Source: a virus. Taken from it: a stretch of 21,500 nt of DNA. The position numbers and the translations under genes were made by a program. Position 1 is the first letter of the stretch. Every line of letters begins with the position of its first letter. The notes beneath the pieces are model-generated. The model was not told the DNA's origin. It saw nothing but the letters and a program-made list of their open reading frames with translations, and made no database searches. This document shows positions 1 to 17,686 of the stretch, one piece after another. The stretch lies in the IMG/VR virus record IMGVR_UViG_3300042468_000821, positions 1-21,500 of that record. The stretch is one strand, 5' to 3'.

Positions 1-3000
1 CATCTCGCCCAAGGCGGACTTCATTCCCCTGCGCGCTACGGACTACGAGATCAACACCACGGTCAAGGAAGCCATGGGTCTCGGCACGCGCGGCATCTAT
101 GTTGACGCCAAGAAGGGCCAGCGCCCGCGGATCTTCGTTAACCTAGACAAGATGGCGACCGGCGACGTGGCTGGCCATGAGATCGGCCACGCCATCCTCA
201 AGAGCGACATCCTCGGCGGCGAGGTGAAGCGCGGCATGCGGGCCATGGTTGACCAGCAGTATGGCACCGATGGAGTCGCCGCCCGCGGACGCGAATACGT
301 CACAGCGAATCTCACGCAGGAAGTGCGCGACGGCACAACCGGTATCCAATTGAACGTGTTGCGCCCCGATGAGGTGACGCGCATTGCCGCGGCCGGTGGC
401 GACGAAGCGGCCGAGCAGGCGCTGAAGAATGAGTTTATCCGCGAGCGCTGGGCCAACGACACCGACTGGCGCAAGCAGGCCATCGAGGAGCGCGCCGACA
501 TGCTGAACCAAGAGCGCTTGGCGCAGGGCGAGATCTCTTGGGACTGGGCGCGCGACGAGATTGCCGCGGAGACATTCAGCGGGCTTGGCAAGGGTCTCAA
601 CCTTTCCGGCGTTCGTGCCAGTGGTCCGCTGAGTCGCGCGGTTGGCGCTGCCTCTGCAGGCTTCGAGGCCATGGGCGCTCGGATGCGCGGCAACGGCCGA
701 CTGGAGACACCCAACCGGCTCTTCGTGGAAAACCCGCTCTTCGACACGCCGGAGATGCGCAAGGCGGTCAACAACTACGTCAAGACGTTCGACCGCTATC
801 TGGTCGGTCTGGAAAAGGAAGGCTCCGTCAAACAGCGCGGCACGCCGATTGCGCCGACCGGCAAGGCCAGCGATGCCATCCGCAGTCCTCACACTCGCCT
901 GCACAAGAACGGCAATGTGGTTGAAAACGATTTGTTCTTTCAGCGTCCAGACGGAACAGTCGTTCCTAAGTCACAGCAGCAGATCAATACGCAGGACAAG
1001 TCGCGCGCTGCCACGATTAAGTCGATCAATGACCGGACCAAGTTCGTTAACGAGAACAGCAACGAGTGGGGCGCTCGCAAACTTAGCAATGGCCGCGTCG
1101 AAGTTGGCGGACCCAACCTGCCGCCCCAGTTCGACTACTTCATCCAGATACCGGAGTACCATCGCAATCTCGTTCGAGAGTTTGAGGCCGGACGCGCAGA
1201 AGGTCGCAGCTATTTGTATTCCATCAACGTCATCGGCAGCCGCGACTCAGGAACGTACAAGGTCACAAACTACGGCAACATCGAGGCCAAGACCGGCGAG
1301 ATGGTTCCCTTCGGTGCCGCCGTCTCGACCAAGAATCATGTGCTGATCAAGGCGATTGACCTTAACTCGTTCCGCGCTTCGGCCATCCGCGCTATCGACA
1401 ACGAGCAGCTCGGCGAGTTTGGCAATGACCTCCGCGCGGTGGAGACCGGCTTAAAGCAACTTCTCAGCAACTACGAGAACGGCGTTGCGGGCGAGACAGG
1501 ACTAGGCGTGACGCGCAAGAACATCCTCAACGGATTGCTGGGCACCGGCACGGTGATGCAGCGCCAGAGCAACCCCGCTTGGCACACGCTGAACAACCAA
1601 GGCAGCGTCCGCACGTTCCGTCTGGACCGCATCAACTACGCGGAGCCATACGGCACCGGCTACTTCCCGCACTACAACAAGATCAACATCAACGCGCTGC
1701 CGGACGACGCCGGTCGCATGTCTCTGGATCAATACGGACAGTTCGACGCCGACCGTAAGGCGGCTTGGATGAACAAGGAGGCGGTGAAGCGCGGCTTTAG
1801 CAACGCAACCAATTGGCAAAACGCAGACGCGCAGGGATTCCAAGCGGCGGATGGGCAGTATCGGCAGCAGTTTCCGGCGGGCGGTGCGGCGCAGCGTGGG
1901 AGCGCTATGCCAGATGCTACAACCACATCAAAGGCTGCTAAAACGCTGGAAGACCTCAAGCGCACTTCGTTCATTCCTACCAAAGTAGCGTCTGATGTTC
2001 TTGGAGGGTTTCCAGAATATCTAAAGCCGGTTGCGCAGTTTATTGCAGATCAGCGCGGCAAGCTCGTCGAGGGCAAGATGAACATGCGCGACATCACCAA
2101 GGCTTATGTGATGACGATTGCTTCGCAAGGCTCTGGAGCGAGAGCCGTTGAGGTTATTGCCAGCAACTTGGCCAAGAAGGACATTCCATTTGCCCCCACT
2201 CAGGAGTTTTTGACCACAGACAAACAGGGGCGCGCGGCAATTCGTCCCGAAGAAGCTGCCGCCTATTGGCTTGGCACCGAAGCAGGACAGCGCGCCCTCA
2301 ACAACGCGGAGAGCGGCGTGTTTAATCCCAGCGACTGGCAGGAGATGGTCGCTCTGCGCAAGGCATACGGAGATGACAGGTTTGCCACTGTGCGCGCATT
2401 TTCGCCGGAGAACATCGCACGCATTCCGCAGGTTCTTGCCGATATCAATGCAAGCCGCGGCAACACCGACGCCGTATTGACAGCCGTACAAAAGCTCAAC
2501 GGAATTTCTACAGGCAAGAAGGGCTTCATTTCACACCTTCTCGGCATTGGCGACGTGCCGACGATTGATGCTGTGGAGATCAATTTTTGGCTGACCGGAA
2601 AAGGAGACGTTGGGAAGCTCAACACTAAGCGCGCCGACCTTGTTCGCCGCGTCAAGGAGTCGGTCAGCGACAGGCGCGTCAGCGAGGAGTTGTTCCGGCG
2701 CATTGACAACCGCATCAACGGATTGCGCGATCAGGTGCAGGGAGGGGCTGAGGTCGATCCAGAGGTCTGGTCGCACGTCATGCATCACTGGCTTTGGGAC
2801 AAGGCCAAGAAGATCGAGACGACACACGAAGGCATGTACAGGGCGCAGGCCAGCTTTTTGCCGGACACCGTCATCAGCGACGAAGGCGGCACCGTCTGGC
2901 GCACGCTGCAAGAGGCTCCTGTTATTACGCTCAAAGACCTGCGCGGGAGAAAGGTCTTTGCGTCCTTCGCGGACCTTACAAGCGCGGGCAAGTTGTACAG

Positions 3001-4690
3001 GGGTATTGATTCAAGCGAGGTGGCTATACCGGTGCGAACACACGGCGGACCAGAATGGCCGTTGCTACAAGCAGAGCGTGTTGGCGAGGAAACCAACGTG
3101 TGGTCTAATCAAGGCGCCGGAGTTTCAACAACCAAAGCCAAGCGCGCAGACGAGGGCGCAATCATGCTCGTCGCGGCCATGCACAAAAACGCGCACGTCA
3201 GCAACACGGAAACGTCCACGGCGGTCATTGCAACAAACGCAGCCTATGCGCGCGATGGAAGAATTGCCGGAGACAATTTGCAGCGCCTCGATGACATGAT
3301 TCGCGCGGAGATGCCTGACTTTGTTGGTATCGAGTCGCCGGACGTCATGGCGTACGTCAACAAGCTACCGTTCCAAGGAGAAAGAAGCAGAAGTCGCATC
3401 GCGCAGATTCTCGGATCGAAAGAAGCCGAAGCTCTGGGGGCGCCAAACTTGCAGCGCATATTGGACGAGATGCGCTCCTCGGAGTTTGACGGACTACGGA
3501 TCGGCGACGCGGTCATGGCTATCGAGCTAACGGCGGGCGCTCCGGTTCTTAAGCTCGGAGAGAATGGAACGCTGAAGCATCCATCTTATCAATACGCCGT
3601 GCGCGGAAGAGTTCTCGGCCGATTCGCGCGCCCCATTAACGTCGAGACGATCTTCGATGACTTTTACGCGCAGAGAAGGGCGCAGGGTAAGCCGCAGCAA
3701 GGAGACAGACGCGCGCTTGACTTGGCAAAGCCTGTGCAGGTGATCACTGACGCTATTGCTGACAGGATTCCAAGCACCGCATACACGGCGATCAAATCTC
3801 CGCGGCATGCGCAGCTTATCAACATGGCCGTCAACGATCAGTGGCGCTCTACCTCGGCAAGCGTGAAGCAGGGAGGCGTTAGTCCGGCAGACATTGTTAG
3901 CGCGCTGAATGCATCTCCCGCCAAAGTGGCTCTTTCTAGGTATGATCTAAAAACCCTTAGCGGCAAGGTGCGCGCAAAAGAGCTTGAGGTCTTCCAGCTA
4001 GGCGACTCCGGCGTGTACTTCGGAGTGCGGAAGGGCGATCCGGCGTCAGACTATGGTCTGGCTCCAGATGCGTATGGCTTTGGGCCGGATGAGCGCACGC
4101 TGACGCTGGTGATGAATAACGAGCGCAAGGCCGGAGGAATGGCCGACGCCATTGTCGTCAAGGCGCTGCAAAATGGTGTGACGGCGCTGGACTGTTTCGC
4201 CGTTAAAAGCGGCAGGTCTCCGAGTGGATTTTTGCCAGAGCTTTACGAGCGCTTTGGGTTTCAGAGGGTTGGAGAGATACCATTTGATCCTTCTTTTTAC
4301 TCGAAAACCGAGCTTGCGGATCTGAGGAAATACTGGAAGAGTACAGGGTGGGACGAGTCGGCAGGAATGCCTTCAATCGTCCTGATGAAATGGAAGGGAA
4401 CTAATGAACAAAGACCAAAAAGCCTACGAGAACTTGTTGGCCAAAGTTCGTCAGGTGTTCGCCAAGGAGATAAACGAGGGTCTCTATTCCGAGACGCAGA
4501 AGGATCTTCTGGACGGCTTCCTAGACGACGCGGTGGCTCGCAGCGGCGGACCGGACAAGGTGACGCTGGAGCAGGTCAAGGGGTGCAAGGATCTGATGCA
4601 GGAGTGCGGCTTGGCCGCGGCATCCTAGGTCCGGTTGAGGAGCTGATCGGATTGTCTCCGGCCGAGCTGCGCAACCTCGGCATTCAATAG
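1..4690 (+). CDS. Giant phage polyvalent protein (5' end outside window)
   Basis: The frame is open from base 2, so the true start lies upstream; the first in-window ATG is at 74. About 1,560 residues are visible. A zincin motif, HEIGH, lies at 176-190 with a possible third ligand in a DEIAAETF segment near 556-580. A helix-hairpin-helix-like segment (STGKKGFISHLLG, about 2505-2545) and a MHKNAHVSNTETS segment (about 3179-3220) resemble conserved blocks of very large phage proteins. The C-terminus (about 4070-4390) looks GNAT-like (ELYERFGFQRVG). Known for the class: such polyvalent proteins are late products, often packaged and ejected with DNA to act on the host. Inferred here: a virion or ejected protein with protease and acyltransferase-like modules. 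From about 4404 the frame turns Arg/Gly-rich and overlaps another gene, so its natural end may be near 4404. Confidence 0.75.
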   Translation, partial: ISPKADFIPLRATDYEINTTVKEAMGLGTRGIYVDAKKGQRPRIFVNLDKMATGDVAGHEIGHAILKSDILGGEVKRGMRAMVDQQYGTDGVAARGREYVTANLTQEVRDGTTGIQLNVLRPDEVTRIAAAGGDEAAEQALKNEFIRERWANDTDWRKQAIEERADMLNQERLAQGEISWDWARDEIAAETFSGLGKGLNLSGVRASGPLSRAVGAASAGFEAMGARMRGNGRLETPNRLFVENPLFDTPEMRKAVNNYVKTFDRYLVGLEKEGSVKQRGTPIAPTGKASDAIRSPHTRLHKNGNVVENDLFFQRPDGTVVPKSQQQINTQDKSRAATIKSINDRTKFVNENSNEWGARKLSNGRVEVGGPNLPPQFDYFIQIPEYHRNLVREFEAGRAEGRSYLYSINVIGSRDSGTYKVTNYGNIEAKTGEMVPFGAAVSTKNHVLIKAIDLNSFRASAIRAIDNEQLGEFGNDLRAVETGLKQLLSNYENGVAGETGLGVTRKNILNGLLGTGTVMQRQSNPAWHTLNNQGSVRTFRLDRINYAEPYGTGYFPHYNKININALPDDAGRMSLDQYGQFDADRKAAWMNKEAVKRGFSNATNWQNADAQGFQAADGQYRQQFPAGGAAQRGSAMPDATTTSKAAKTLEDLKRTSFIPTKVASDVLGGFPEYLKPVAQFIADQRGKLVEGKMNMRDITKAYVMTIASQGSGARAVEVIASNLAKKDIPFAPTQEFLTTDKQGRAAIRPEEAAAYWLGTEAGQRALNNAESGVFNPSDWQEMVALRKAYGDDRFATVRAFSPENIARIPQVLADINASRGNTDAVLTAVQKLNGISTGKKGFISHLLGIGDVPTIDAVEINFWLTGKGDVGKLNTKRADLVRRVKESVSDRRVSEELFRRIDNRINGLRDQVQGGAEVDPEVWSHVMHHWLWDKAKKIETTHEGMYRAQASFLPDTVISDEGGTVWRTLQEAPVITLKDLRGRKVFASFADLTSAGKLYRGIDSSEVAIPVRTHGGPEWPLLQAERVGEETNVWSNQGAGVSTTKAKRADEGAIMLVAAMHKNAHVSNTETSTAVIATNAAYARDGRIAGDNLQRLDDMIRAEMPDFVGIESPDVMAYVNKLPFQGERSRSRIAQILGSKEAEALGAPNLQRILDEMRSSEFDGLRIGDAVMAIELTAGAPVLKLGENGTLKHPSYQYAVRGRVLGRFARPINVETIFDDFYAQRRAQGKPQQGDRRALDLAKPVQVITDAIADRIPSTAYTAIKSPRHAQLINMAVNDQWRSTSASVKQGGVSPADIVSALNASPAKVALSRYDLKTLSGKVRAKELEVFQLGDSGVYFGVRKGDPASDYGLAPDAYGFGPDERTLTLVMNNERKAGGMADAIVVKALQNGVTALDCFAVKSGRSPSGFLPELYERFGFQRVGEIPFDPSFYSKTELADLRKYWKSTGWDESAGMPSIVLMKWKGTNEQRPKSLRELVGQSSSGVRQGDKRGSLFRDAEGSSGRLPRRRGGSQRRTGQGDAGAGQGVQGSDAGVRLGRGILGPVEELIGLSPAELRNLGIQ
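4404..4628 (+). CDS. Small helical protein nested at the end of the giant gene
   Basis: This ORF encodes 74 residues, charged and apparently helical (MNKDQKAYENLLAKVRQV), with no family I recognise. It lies in the +1 frame relative to the giant gene and wholly inside it. In this stretch its own translation looks like normal protein, while the giant frame becomes low-complexity Arg/Gly/Ser, so this is probably the real coding frame. The ATG sits in a TAATGA context. After its stop, the giant frame again reads like protein (GPVEELIGLSPAEL, to 4690), so a -1 frameshift, programmed or caused by an indel, could join the two pieces into a protein of about 95 residues. Confidence 0.6.
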   Translation: MNKDQKAYENLLAKVRQVFAKEINEGLYSETQKDLLDGFLDDAVARSGGPDKVTLEQVKGCKDLMQECGLAAAS

Positions 4691-11946: not shown

Positions 11947-12423
11947 ATGCAAAACCTCATCGAAAAAGCCAAAGCCGCCTTCAAGCCTCAACCCCAACCC
12001 GCCCCCAAGCCAGCATCCGGTCCTAATCCGGTGTCCGAACAGGTAGCCGCCCTGCCGGTCGAGCCGGTGACGGCCGCAGAGCCGAAGCCGGAAGCCAGCC
12101 TAGTCGCCGCCCCCAAGTCCGCCAAGGAGCTGGCCGAGGAGACAGCGCGGCAGGTTGGTTTCCGGCAGGGCGACGAGTTCGCCAACATCAGGCTGTGCAA
12201 GGCTCAGACCCCGCGGAACTCGCACATGCTCTACATTGAGAACCTTCCGAACTGGTCAGAGCGGGCGATTTGCTGGGTGAAGGACGCTGAGAGCTGGAAG
12301 CCGGTGTGCCCGCCGCATGACAAGCTGAAGGTTAAATACACCGGCATGGCGAACGCGGACGGCGTTTTGATGTTCGAGTCGTCGGACATCTCGAAGCGCA
12401 ACCGTCTCAGGAGGGCACAATGA
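11947..12423 (+). CDS. Hypothetical protein upstream of initiator
   Basis: This 158-residue protein has a helical start, a Pro/Ala-rich linker (about 14-55), and a C-terminal domain of about 90 residues (FANIRLCKAQTPRNSHMLY, SERAICWVKDAESWKPVC). No family is recognised. There is no SD; the upstream bases are A/C-rich. It overlaps the replication initiator by 4 bases, which suggests a replication-related role. Confidence 0.6.
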   Translation: MQNLIEKAKAAFKPQPQPAPKPASGPNPVSEQVAALPVEPVTAAEPKPEASLVAAPKSAKELAEETARQVGFRQGDEFANIRLCKAQTPRNSHMLYIENLPNWSERAICWVKDAESWKPVCPPHDKLKVKYTGMANADGVLMFESSDISKRNRLRRAQ

Positions 12424-13268
12424 GCGTCGCCGCGACCTCTTACGTCTGGGAGAAGAGCGCGGCGGAAGGCGCCGACCGGCTGGTGCTGCTCGCGCTGGCT
12501 GACTTTGCGGATGAGTACGGCAACTGCTTTGGATCTTGGGGCAAGCTGTGCAGCAAGACGCGCTTGGCTCGCTCAACCGTTGCCCGCTCTTTGCGCCGCC
12601 TGCAGGATTTCGGCGAGCTGGCCATGGTCGAGAAGGGGCATCGCCGCATCGCCGGAAACGGCTCCGAGGCGACCGTTTGGCGCATTGTCGGACTGGCGCC
12701 GGAGATAGGTGTCAAATTGAGACGGGTCCAAAATTTGGACCCAAGTAGTGTCACGATTGGACCCAAGGAGTGTCAGAATCGGACCCCAACTATAAGTAAC
12801 AATAAGGAACATCTATTAGGTGACACTCCGGCGACTCCGTCGCCTTCGCATCCTCCCAAAAAGGACGAGGCAGCAACCGGCGCCCCCGAACCTAAACCGC
12901 GCAAGGCCAAGGTTCCGGTCGAGGTTGTCGGCCCCGATTCGCTTCCCCTACCCCACTCCGGCTCCGGCTTCCACAAATGGTGGGGCGAGTTTTGCGAATT
13001 TCGCACCGGCAAGATCCGCGGGCGAAACAACCCCATGACGTTGCGCGCCGCCAAGATCATCTTGGACGAACTGGCGACCGTCAACGAATGGCAAGCCGTC
13101 GAGGCGATCAAGACCGCCATCGCCTGCGCTTACGTTAAGCCCTACACCGACAAATACCGCGACAAGCGCGGAGGAGTGCATAACCCGCAGCCTCTGCCGC
13201 AGCAGACGTCCGGCCCCAGCGCCCTAGAGCGCAGCCTGCAGCGCGCGCGCATGGAGGTAGCAGCGTGA
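12420..13268 (+). CDS. Replication initiator, lambda O-like, with wHTH
   Basis: This 282-residue protein has an N-terminal winged helix-turn-helix (about 7-80: LVLLALADFADEYGN, SWGKLCSKTRLARSTVARSL, LQDFGELAMV) like that of phage replisome organisers. A Pro-rich linker (about 120-175) leads to a C-terminal helical domain (about 185-265). Known for the class: the initiator binds iterons within its own gene and recruits helicase. Here iterons lie exactly in the part encoding the linker, and a DnaB-like helicase gene is downstream. A strong AGGAGG SD precedes the ATG. Family membership is inferred from architecture. Confidence 0.72.
   Translation: MSVAATSYVWEKSAAEGADRLVLLALADFADEYGNCFGSWGKLCSKTRLARSTVARSLRRLQDFGELAMVEKGHRRIAGNGSEATVWRIVGLAPEIGVKLRRVQNLDPSSVTIGPKECQNRTPTISNNKEHLLGDTPATPSPSHPPKKDEAATGAPEPKPRKAKVPVEVVGPDSLPLPHSGSGFHKWWGEFCEFRTGKIRGRNNPMTLRAAKIILDELATVNEWQAVEAIKTAIACAYVKPYTDKYRDKRGGVHNPQPLPQQTSGPSALERSLQRARMEVAA
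12724..12829 (+). repeat. Iteron cluster, candidate replication origin
   Basis: Two 22-bp direct repeats (12735-12756 and 12757-12778) start TTGGACCCAAG and share AGTGTCA, differing at only three positions. A partial third copy starts at 12779. An inverted copy of the first part, GGGTCCAAA, lies at 12724-12732. GGAGTGTCA (12767-12775) recurs inverted at 12821-12829. AT-rich DNA (12791-12820) lies between, as expected of an unwinding element. The cluster is inside the initiator gene, as in lambda ori. Confidence 0.7.
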
Positions 13269-13735
13269 TAAACCGGATGGCCGAGTTTGACCTGTCGGCG
13301 TGCCGCAAAGGCGAGATCTCCGAGCAACTGTTTGCGGTCGGCGCCATGGTCCGCGACTTTGAGATTTTCGCACCGCGCGGGCACTCACAGACAGCCGACC
13401 TGTGCATTATCAAGGCGGGTCAGCGCCCGCTCATGGTGCAGGTCAAGACCGCTTACTTTGACGGCGTGCGCGGTGAGTATTCTATAAACGTCGGACGAGG
13501 GCGCTCAAGCAAGTCAGCCTACCTAAAGGGCGACTTTGACATCCTCGCCGCTTACCTGCCGGATCGAAATCAGTTTGTGCTTTGGACGCTCGAAGATCTG
13601 AAAGGGCGCAAAAAGGTCCGCTACTCCCCCACAAGACATCGAGCACCCAATAACTGGGACTTGCTAGACGATGTTGCACAATCGCTAACTAATTCTAGGG
13701 GTATGACAGCCCCTGTCCCACCCCCTTCTTTATAG
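13265..13735 (+). CDS. PD-(D/E)XK nuclease-like protein
   Basis: This 156-residue protein has the spacing of a PD-(D/E)XK fold: Glu in KGEISEQLF (E17/E20), Asp in TADLCIIK (D45) and QVK (Q59, K61), with Gln replacing the usual Glu. Such folds occur in resolvases, homing endonucleases and restriction enzymes. GTG start at 13265 follows a GGAGG SD and overlaps the initiator stop. Substrate unknown; a role in phage DNA processing is plausible. Confidence 0.65.
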   Translation: MINRMAEFDLSACRKGEISEQLFAVGAMVRDFEIFAPRGHSQTADLCIIKAGQRPLMVQVKTAYFDGVRGEYSINVGRGRSSKSAYLKGDFDILAAYLPDRNQFVLWTLEDLKGRKKVRYSPTRHRAPNNWDLLDDVAQSLTNSRGMTAPVPPPSL

Positions 13736-14558: not shown

Positions 14559-14583
14559 TGACGACGACGACAACTTTGTATGA
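14485..14583 (+). CDS. Tiny membrane peptide with acidic tail
   Basis: This 32-residue ORF has one strong hydrophobic helix (about 5-23, QTFIYLAFLALLVLAVLAA) followed by SDDDDDNFV. A GGAGGG SD sits about 9 bases before the ATG at 14485, and its stop overlaps the helicase ATG. Both support translation, possibly coupling helicase synthesis to it. It could be a membrane-acting phage peptide; no family is recognised. Confidence 0.55.
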   Translation: MSPVQTFIYLAFLALLVLAVLAASDDDDDNFV

Positions 14584-15983
14584 AAACCACCACCACCCCG
14601 CAAAGCCCAAACACCGAGAAGGCGGTCCTCGGCACACTCATGGCCGAACCAAAGCTCGCCGATGAGGTTGCCGGTCTGCACGCTGATCTTTTTTACACTC
14701 CGGCGCATCGCGCGATTTTTGATACTATCACCGAGATCCGCGCAGACGGCGGTGTGCCGAATATCATCGCGGTCACGCAGAGGCTCGACGCGCAGAAAAA
14801 GCTGATTTTTGTCGGCGGCGCCGGAGCTATCACCGAATTTCTTTTGCAAGCGTGCGGTGGTCTGGCCGCGCTTGAGTACCATGCCCAAACCTTGCGCGAT
14901 CTGCACGGCCGTCGCTCGATTATCTCCGCGGCAGTCGCCATGCAAGCGGCGGCGCACGACATGGCCGCGAACGCCGACGAGGTGCTGCAGTCCGCCGGAG
15001 AGAGTGTCCTGTCGCTCAGTCTCGGCGCGCCGACCGACTCGATGCGCAGCGCGGCCGACATCGTGCCCTCGCTTCTCGAAGAGCTGGAAGCGCTGATGGA
15101 CAACAAGCAGACGCTCGGCCTGCGCACCGGCTTCGCCGATCTGGATCAGGTGACCGGCGGTCTGCGCGGCGGCACGTTGACCGTCATCGCAGGACGTCCG
15201 GCCATGGGTAAGAGCGCGCTGATGATGAACATCGCGGACAACCTGATGCGCCGCAAGGTGCCGGTGCTCTACTTCAGCCTCGAAATGCCCGCCAATGAGT
15301 TAGCCGCTCGCGTAGTGTTGTCGCGCGCCAACACCAACACCGAGCTGGTCCGCAATGGATTTGTCGATCACGCCGGAAAGCGCCGCATCGGTTCCGCCGC
15401 TTTGGATTTTTCCGGTGAGCCTTTGTACATAGATGACCGCTGTGGCATGAGTCTCTTGGACATCCGCGGACGTGCAAGGTTGGCCGTTCGCAGGTGGGGC
15501 GTGAAGATTGTCTTTGTTGATTATTTGCAGCTCGTCTCGCACTCGAATGCGAAGTCGCGCGAGAATGAGGTCGGCTTTGTCAGCCGCGGATTAAAGGCCA
15601 TGGCCATGGAGCTAGGCATTCCAGTGGTCGCCGCCGCGCAGTTAAACAGGCAAGCGGAGAACCGGCCCGACAACCGGCCGAAGCTCTCCGATCTGCGCGA
15701 GAGCGGCAGCATCGAACAGGATGCCGATCTGGTCGCTCTCGTTCATCGCCCCGCTTACTACGCGGTCGCCGACGAGGAGCCAGAACCACAGGACGCGGAG
15801 TTAATCATTGCGAAACACAGGGCCGGACGAACCGGCACCTTGAATATGACGTGGCGCCCCAGCCTGACGCGCTTCGACGCGAAGGCGCCGGTCAGCAACA
15901 TCGTCTCCGCGCCACGCCTGACTGACGAGGGCAACAGCGTCTACGCACCGGACAAACAGCTCTGGGAGGCCATCAACGAATGA
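14580..15983 (+). CDS. dnaB: Replicative DNA helicase, DnaB-like
   Basis: This 467-residue protein, the usual length for DnaB, unwinds DNA 5'-3' at the fork as a ring hexamer. The N-terminal domain (about 10-110: EKAVLGTLM, HRAIFDTI) is followed by a linker helix and a RecA-like motor. Walker A is GRPAMGKS (205-212), Walker B is VFVDYLQL (D314), the sensor Gln lies in AAQLNR (Q354), then DLRESGSIEQDAD, and an arginine-finger region KHRAGRTG (412-419). All expected motifs are present. Initiator and origin are upstream, and resolvase and ssDNA-binding genes follow, forming a complete replication module. No SD; coupled by ATGA to the membrane peptide. Confidence 0.95.
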   Translation: MKTTTTPQSPNTEKAVLGTLMAEPKLADEVAGLHADLFYTPAHRAIFDTITEIRADGGVPNIIAVTQRLDAQKKLIFVGGAGAITEFLLQACGGLAALEYHAQTLRDLHGRRSIISAAVAMQAAAHDMAANADEVLQSAGESVLSLSLGAPTDSMRSAADIVPSLLEELEALMDNKQTLGLRTGFADLDQVTGGLRGGTLTVIAGRPAMGKSALMMNIADNLMRRKVPVLYFSLEMPANELAARVVLSRANTNTELVRNGFVDHAGKRRIGSAALDFSGEPLYIDDRCGMSLLDIRGRARLAVRRWGVKIVFVDYLQLVSHSNAKSRENEVGFVSRGLKAMAMELGIPVVAAAQLNRQAENRPDNRPKLSDLRESGSIEQDADLVALVHRPAYYAVADEEPEPQDAELIIAKHRAGRTGTLNMTWRPSLTRFDAKAPVSNIVSAPRLTDEGNSVYAPDKQLWEAINE

Positions 15984-16357
15984 TCAACTCCCGCCAGAAG
16001 GGCGCCTCGTTCGAGCGCGAGGTTGCCAAGGCTCTGACCGCTGAAGGTTTTTCGGCAAAGCGGGGCGCGCAGGTCTCGCAGGGATCTTGGGGGATCTCCG
16101 CACCAGACGTGATTGTGCCCTGCTTGCCGGACTGGCACTTCGAGTGCAAACGCCACGGCCGCGCGCGCTTCGACCTCGATGCGGCTATCGCTCAAGCCTA
16201 CCGCGACGCCGAGCGCAAAAACTGTGCCGTGATCCATCGCAAGGATCACTGCCGCATGCTGGTCACCCTCACGTTCGAGGACTTCTGCGAACTCATGCGC
16301 CACAGCGATTTTCCCATCCAACCAAAAACACCAAACCCACATACACAAAATGAATAA
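15980..16357 (+). CDS. Holliday-junction-resolvase-like nuclease
   Basis: This 125-residue protein has the archaeal-Hjc-like PD-(D/E)XK layout: QKGASFEREVAKAL with E12/E14, then APDVIVP (D43) and FECKRH (E55, K57), with helices after. Such enzymes cleave branched recombination intermediates before packaging. ATG at 15980 overlaps the helicase stop behind a GGGAGG SD. Fold assignment is fairly secure; junction specificity is inferred from context. Confidence 0.75.
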   Translation: MINSRQKGASFEREVAKALTAEGFSAKRGAQVSQGSWGISAPDVIVPCLPDWHFECKRHGRARFDLDAAIAQAYRDAERKNCAVIHRKDHCRMLVTLTFEDFCELMRHSDFPIQPKTPNPHTQNE

Positions 16358-16919
16358 AACCCTAACAACACCCGCGGGCGTCGCTCGCTATCCCAGACTC
16401 AACTCGCCGGACACCAAGTTCAGCGAGGAGGGCCAATACAAAGTAGACCTCGAAATGTCCGCCGAAGACGCGGAGCCGTTTCTCAAACAGATCGAGGCCA
16501 TGTTCTCGGAGTTTGTCGCTGACAAAAAGCGCGAGCTGAAAAAAGACACGCTCAAGATCCACGCAGCGCCATGGTCCGAAAACGACGGACTGGTGCAGCT
16601 CAAGCTGAAGGTCAAAGCGACCGGCAAGAGCAAGGACGGCGAGACGTACACGCGCCAACCGAAGCTGTTTGATGCTTCCGGTCAGATCACCAACGAAAAC
16701 ATCGGCGGCGGGAGCAAGCTCAAGGTCGCTGTGGTGCCATACTTTTGGTACACCGCGTCGCTCGGCGCCGGAATCACCTTGCAGCCCAAGGCAGTCCAGA
16801 TTTTGGATCTCGTCACTTGGTCTAGCGGCGGCACTGCCGAGGCTTACGGCTTCGAGGTAACTGAGGCGCCTCGCGCATCGGTCAAAACCGGAACCAACAA
16901 CGAAGAGGTCGAGTGGTAG
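16350..16919 (+). CDS. ssDNA-binding protein, T7 gp2.5 / DUF2815-like
   Basis: This 189-residue protein starts with the pattern typical of this OB-fold group: GVARYPRLNSPDTKFSEEGQ followed by YKVDLEMS. The middle is KLKVKATGKSKDGE. The C-terminal tail is acidic and ends with an aromatic residue (NNEEVEW), as in T7 gp2.5, where the tail contacts replisome proteins. It would coat single strands in replication and recombination. Gene order beside helicase and exonuclease fits. No SD; A/C-rich leader. Confidence 0.8.
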   Translation: MNKTLTTPAGVARYPRLNSPDTKFSEEGQYKVDLEMSAEDAEPFLKQIEAMFSEFVADKKRELKKDTLKIHAAPWSENDGLVQLKLKVKATGKSKDGETYTRQPKLFDASGQITNENIGGGSKLKVAVVPYFWYTASLGAGITLQPKAVQILDLVTWSSGGTAEAYGFEVTEAPRASVKTGTNNEEVEW

Positions 16920-16921
16920 CC

Positions 16922-17686
16922 ATGGCAACCACACGCAAAAGGGGGGCGGCAAAACGCCGCTCCCCTTCGGCCAAGGCCGCGGAGCCTGCGCCGGAGCGTT
17001 TCGCTGCAGACGGACGCAAACTCGTACGTTTGGAGAAGTTGAAAGCGCACCAGAAGTATATCCTCAAGGACGGCACGCAAGTGGTCGGCGCCTCGACCAT
17101 CTCCAAGATCGGCGATGACCAGAGCAACTTGATCCACTGGGCATGGGGGCTTGGCAACAAGAACCAAGACTACCGCAAAGTGCGCGACCGCGCGGCCGAC
17201 ATCGGGACGATCACGCACTTCTTAATCGAGTGCTTTTTCCACGGTTGGGCGGCTGACCTCTCCGAGTTCGCACCGGCCGACATCGAGAAGGCGGGCGTCG
17301 CGTTCGCCAACTTCCTGTCTTTCTGGGAGGAGCAAGGTCTCACCGTGTTAGAACCGGAAGTGCAGCTCGTCAGCGAGGCGCACCTGTTTGGCGGCACGAT
17401 CGACGCGCCGTCCGTAGACAAGGAAGGCCGCATTGTCTTGCTCGACTGGAAGACATCAAGCGGCATTTACCTGTCGCAAAAGCTGCAGCTCGCAGCCTAT
17501 GAGCGCCTATGGAATGAGAACCGGCCGGAGCAACGTGTTCAGCGCCGCGCCGTCGTTCGCATCGGCAAGGAAAAGGCAAACGACCACAGCATCGAGTGGA
17601 TGTTCTCTTCGGACAACGAGTGGGATCTGTTCAAGGCCCGCCTTGATCTGCACTACGCGAACCTCCGCTACAAGAAAGCCGCCTGA
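16922..17686 (+). CDS. RecB/Cas4-like PD-(D/E)XK exonuclease
   Basis: This 254-residue protein carries the full motif set of the RecB nuclease family: GTITHFLIE (H99, E103), GGTIDAP (D161), LLDWKTS (D175, K177) and QLAAY (Q189-Y193). It lacks an obvious Fe-S cysteine set. It probably processes DNA ends for recombination together with the adjacent ssDNA-binding protein. The start could be ATG at 16922 or GTG at 16913, which overlaps the upstream stop; the ATG is chosen but is not certain. Confidence 0.85.
   Translation: MATTRKRGAAKRRSPSAKAAEPAPERFAADGRKLVRLEKLKAHQKYILKDGTQVVGASTISKIGDDQSNLIHWAWGLGNKNQDYRKVRDRAADIGTITHFLIECFFHGWAADLSEFAPADIEKAGVAFANFLSFWEEQGLTVLEPEVQLVSEAHLFGGTIDAPSVDKEGRIVLLDWKTSSGIYLSQKLQLAAYERLWNENRPEQRVQRRAVVRIGKEKANDHSIEWMFSSDNEWDLFKARLDLHYANLRYKKAA

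Follow-up and report, generated by a model that had tools for sequence, protein, structure and literature searches.

In bacteriophage lambda, the gene for the initiator protein O contains the iterons to which O binds, and opening takes place in the AT-rich tract (PMC7466680, PMC3349717). Lambda ori comprises four iterons, which are imperfect inverted repeats with 6-bp arms and a 5-bp spacer, located in the linker-coding part of O (PMC7466680), a description that also fits the locus reported here. In phage P22, the origin is annotated inside the initiator gene, gene 18 (32840-32984) (PMC8022706). Origins inside initiator genes are textbook matter for lambda and P22, so that an element of this sort in a 21.5-kb virus fragment (the whole stretch of 21,500 nucleotides analysed, hereafter the window) is expected in kind.

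We propose, with a probability of about 0.86, that the element is a phage replication origin within its own initiator gene, of the lambda O/P22 gene 18 type, and that it is read by the product of that gene. This reading relies on a phased repeat array that is unique in the genome of a relative, on its location in the linker-coding DNA, on covariation and natural swaps among relatives, on the layout shared with lambda and P22, on the AT-rich neighbour and the nearby replication genes, and on a survey of genes of the HTH_36 family. The gene and the elements it contains are the following.

12420..13268, + strand: initiator gene, 282 aa, with a winged helix-turn-helix domain (wHTH, residues 1-90), a disordered linker (95-167) and a C-terminal helical domain (~180-240); HTH_36, PF13730, E 1.1e-7; PHROG replication initiation and O-like profiles; predicted structure
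12570..12611, + strand: recognition helix, codons 51-64; helix 51-64 in the model, residues 50, 52 and 56 varying with the half-site letters
12708..12724, + strand: iteron 1, degenerate, abutting iteron 2; GGTGTCAAATTGAGACG, read from the sequence, homologous sites in relatives being better palindromes
12725..12741, + strand: iteron 2, perfect inverted repeat; GGTCCAAAATTTGGACC, 6/6 arm pairs
12747..12763, + strand: iteron 3, two unlike half-sites; AGTGTCACGATTGGACC
12769..12785, + strand: iteron 4, two unlike half-sites; AGTGTCAGAATCGGACC
12788..12827, + strand: AT-rich stretch, probable unwinding element; 70% A+T, AT-rich in relatives too
12830..12844, + strand: hairpin GGCGAC-TCC-GTCGCC, its stem preserved by compensatory changes in relatives

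The initiator matches PF13730 at 32 bits (cut-off 25), as well as the PHROG profiles phrog_1032, 6643 and 391. HTH_36 is its sole Pfam match; no match was found to PF04492 (Phage_rep_O), which lambda O and P22 gp18 do match. By these profiles, the protein is a member of the HTH_36 initiators and not of the Phage_rep_O family. In an AlphaFold model built with 17 family members, the winged helix (1-90) is confident, while residues 95-167 have a pLDDT below 50. The iterons code for residues 97-122 and the AT-rich part for residues 123-136, both within this linker, which bears out the claim of an earlier, sequence-only reading that the repeats lie between the wHTH and the C-terminal domain. As modelled, the disordered linker is the stretch of weakest protein constraint. 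A fold search with the initiator returned generic winged helices only, none with an E-value below 0.01, and a sequence search for solved structures found none related to the family of this initiator or to lambda O.

The repeats had been described as two near-perfect 22-bp direct repeats. Both are real (12735-12756 and 12757-12778), but at 86% identity "near-perfect" is too strong a word, and 22 bp is the period rather than the functional unit, which the alignment of relatives indicates to be a partly palindromic site of 17 bp. Four such sites underlie the repeats, with iterons 2, 3 and 4 at the 22-bp period and the degenerate iteron 1 to the left of the repeats originally reported. A partial third copy, TCGGACCCC, is indeed present at 12779-12787, as are the inverted half copies, GGGTCCAAAATTTGGACCC over 12724-12742 and inverted GTGTCACC at 12819-12826. 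Aligned relatives give the site formula GGT-XYZ-N5-Z'Y'X'-ACC, an inverted repeat that mostly recurs with a 22-bp period. The iterons, for which a search in related phages had been suggested, are found there as 17-bp sites whose spacing is kept and whose letters vary across the family.

Among the four sites of the window, only iteron 2 is a perfect palindrome (the segment 12726-12740 within it is one of only eight perfect 6-3-6 palindromes in the window), whereas iterons 1, 3 and 4 are poor ones. Iterons 3 and 4 each consist of two unlike halves, GTGTC and GGACC. Sibling groups carry clean inverted repeats (GGTGCAGGAAATGCACC in L096, AGTCTCAAAATGAGACC in L079 and GGTGTCAGCGCGACACC in L112). 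A similar mixture of half-sites recurs in L109 and L138/L141, relatives that are more distant and whose helix, ARSTIAR, is related, and the mixed half-sites are therefore probably a trait of the specificity class rather than a sign of decay. The palindromy of three window sites taken alone is not significant against synonymous shuffles (p 0.07) and becomes clear only once relatives are compared, so that the case rests on the direct repeat and on the relatives. Rfam gave no match within the window.

The AT-rich segment reported beside the repeats is confirmed: with 70% A+T in a window of 59% G+C, the 40-mer that starts at 12788 is among the seven most AT-rich ones of the window. To its right, inside coding DNA, lies a hairpin (12830-12844) that the earlier description had missed. 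Of 83 related gene copies, 78 have a perfect 6-bp stem in this position. Three of its six pairs are altered on both sides, with a covariation score exceeding all 500 shuffles, and matched variants such as GGCGAT/ATCGCC, GGCTGC/GCAGCC and GGCAAC/GTTGCC change the encoded amino acids, a pattern of selection on the DNA. As a single strand, the hairpin might serve helicase or primase loading; it might instead mark a recombination boundary. The idea that such a hairpin is a general trait of all HTH_36 origins was discarded, most of the diverse genes having no significant hairpin.

The letters of the sites follow the protein that very likely reads them, and this comparison across relatives supplies the strongest evidence for the origin reading. 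Over 55 distinct relatives, representing 12 helix types, the half-site triplet tracks the recognition helix: ARATVAR goes with CTC (partly GTC), ARRTVAD with GCA only, CRATVAN with CTA/CCA, the SRST types with GTC, and the helices ARST..AR with GTC plus CCA/CCG. Residues 52 and 56, picked post hoc, explain 83% of the half-site variance over the twelve helix types (permutation p ~1e-4, kinship being ignored). Relatives have also exchanged helix and sites together. The genes L048 and L090 are 93-100% identical as DNA up to nt 150 and, save for a single 30-nt step at 481 that drops to 70%, after nt 390; the block between (nt 154-390), which contains the recognition helix, the wing and the iterons, is only 37-80% identical. 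The same exchange between two specificity classes recurs in several other flanking backgrounds (L064/L094, L066/L093 and L052/L101). In L012, an N-terminus and iterons of the window type (97-100%) continue, just past the origin, into an L015-type C-terminal part (97-100%), and in L138/L141 the wHTH and iterons are retained while the C-terminal part is exchanged. As judged from these alignments, the natural swaps are stronger evidence than the covariation statistics that the wHTH reads the sites. Given the covariation, the swaps and the L012 joint, the wHTH of the window initiator very likely recognizes the putative binding sites at 12708-12785.

These data incline us, a little beyond an even chance, to a more specific proposal: that the initiator gene contains one exchangeable cassette of specificity, made up of helix, wing and iterons, which would have been moved repeatedly by recombination between otherwise near-identical genes and would obey a short, readable code relating residues 50, 52 and 56 to the inner half-site triplet, the covarying hairpin beside the AT-rich part being a further origin element. 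A search of the open literature found neither HTH_36 origins nor covariation of helix and iterons directly described in phages, which does not in itself prove absence.

Covariation proves recognition at most, not initiation, and the initiator-bound sites could be an operator or a copy-control (incompatibility) element, with initiation taking place elsewhere. The GC skew has a bearing on this point. It was computed on a relative, G001 (the contig of L002; 40,701 bases), and on most of another, G002. The initiator gene is identical in G001, with which the window agrees at every point sampled from base 16,226 onward. The two ends of G001 share a direct terminal repeat of 127 bases, and the contig is for this reason probably a whole phage genome, ~40.6 kb long. 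The expectation that the skew minimum would lie at the origin failed: in G001 the minimum is at 10.9 kb and the iterons at 28.9 kb, ~18 kb apart, and on most of G002 the minimum is also away from the iterons. In the lambda control, the detrended skew measure fell within 1 kb of ori. GC skew in phages is dominated by gene direction, so that we regard these results as weak evidence and not as a refutation; moreover, no repeats were found at the 10.9-kb minimum of G001. An operator or copy-control role also leaves aside the AT-rich stretch and the conserved hairpin beside the sites, a layout that opening requires and repression does not. In lambda this layout is the origin, and in P22 it is annotated as such. 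We consider such a role unlikely. As an origin, the element may well be the only one of the phage.

The mosaic joints sit right after the iterons, and genes that diverge elsewhere agree in the bases around the hairpin. Both facts would be explained if this DNA were mainly a recombination boundary between the wHTH and C-terminal modules, kept since exchange at this place gives working genes. Shared homology does not, however, need compensatory stem pairs, and the iteron letters diverge strongly between classes, following the helix; this explanation is very improbable.

The repeat itself was compared with synonymous redraws of the gene that keep the protein. The observed 22-bp self-match is 30/44, a value that none of 20,000 redraws reaches (maximum 29), and the best 22-bp periodicity anywhere in the 40.7-kb genome G001 is that of the iterons, at 28,946. 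Since 22 is not divisible by three and iterons 2, 3 and 4 occupy three different reading frames, the array is not a peptide repeat, and the selection acts on DNA. That the repeats reflect the encoded peptide or chance and have no function as DNA, as a low-complexity linker with Pro, Ser and Thr and a possibly recent 22-bp duplication might have suggested, is already contradicted by the frames, by the shuffles and by a spacing that is kept while the letters change across the family, and can be given almost no credence.

Under the origin reading, the N-terminal winged helix would bind the 17-bp sites, probably as one dimer per site. With iterons about two helical turns apart, the bound initiators would build a nucleoprotein complex able to open the adjoining AT-rich stretch, where the phage DnaB would be loaded, presumably through the C-terminal domain of the initiator. 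Opening and DnaB loading are proposed by analogy with the lambda mechanism. The genes that follow the initiator are these.

13265-13732: PDDEXK_5 (PF11645) nuclease-like gene, directly after the initiator
14580..15983, + strand: phage DnaB-type replicative helicase, probable client of the initiator; Pfam DnaB_C E 2.9e-85; 28% identical to P22 gp12
15980-17686: RusA-like/PDDEXK_15 ORF, T7 Gp2.5-like SSB and PDDEXK_1 exonuclease-like ORF, head to tail after DnaB

Replication genes (DnaB, SSB and the RusA-like resolvase) thus adjoin the initiator. DnaB lies downstream of it in 23 of the 24 loci L002-L025, the remaining locus ending too soon. Relatives of either C-terminal type have DnaB proteins ~97% identical, so that DnaB does not track the C-terminal type, which says nothing for or against contact. 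No profile of a P-type helicase loader was found among the ORFs scanned between the initiator and DnaB, some small ORFs excepted. In most of the relatives examined, the next gene after the initiator is likewise a PDDEXK_5 gene, and a second copy lies upstream of the initiator in L080 and L096 (coordinates ~732-1184 and 2385-2801 in L080, ~665-1135 and 2430-2927 in L096). The 1538-aa ORF at 74-4690 had no match in the PHROG scan.

This family contributes a natural series of swaps of helix and binding site in genes that otherwise hardly vary, and so opens the rule by which HTH_36 initiators recognize DNA to direct testing. The series suggests that one short block is what phages swap to diversify the specificity of their origins, an exchange that would perhaps avoid competition with related phages or prophages that occupy one cell. 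For uncultured phages, origins could be predicted simply, by searching the part of each HTH_36 gene that encodes the linker for phased repeats.

Other HTH_36 initiators (for example Arthrobacter phage KellEzio gp40, Vibrio phage H20, and prophage genes in Alphaproteobacteria, Actinobacteria and Chloroflexi) have the domain family and the N-terminal motif in common with that of the window, and many phage and prophage members also have repeats in the linker-coding DNA. They differ from it by a wHTH identity of at most ~46%, by other half-site letters and by other C-terminal domains. In a set of 20 diverse HTH_36 genes, drawn from phages and from bacterial genomes, repeats in the linker DNA exceed synonymous shuffling at p <= 0.01 in 13 cases, compared with 1/20 in each of two control segments. 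Judging by this survey, the layout with repeats in the linker is general among HTH_36 genes.

At the level of sequence, the window initiator is linked to lambda O and P22 gp18 only by the PHROG profiles they share, with no significant similarity otherwise, and both of these systems differ from it by their iteron letters and by their initiator family. The sequence-only reading had likened the locus to lambda O/ori with an unrelated iteron sequence. The likeness stands as regards iterons followed by AT-rich DNA in the linker-coding part, and in lambda, too, the AT-rich DNA has an inverted repeat immediately on its right. The iterons are unrelated to those of lambda as far as the letters of the window go, but the sites are built as in lambda, from 6-bp arms around a 5-bp spacer, and the iteron GGTCTCAAAACGAGACC of the sibling L079 has 11 consecutive bases in common with lambda iteron 1. 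In P22, the repeats and AT-rich DNA are likewise followed by a hairpin, of C/G type (CCCCC..GGGGG), and the phage's own DnaB (gene 12) lies downstream, although in the window several small genes separate the initiator from DnaB. In lambda, P loads the host DnaB, whereas here the phage encodes its own, which makes the layout P22-like rather than lambda-like; on gene content, the helicase arrangement is that of P22, where the gene 18 initiator is paired with the gene 12 DnaB, and not that of lambda O and P.
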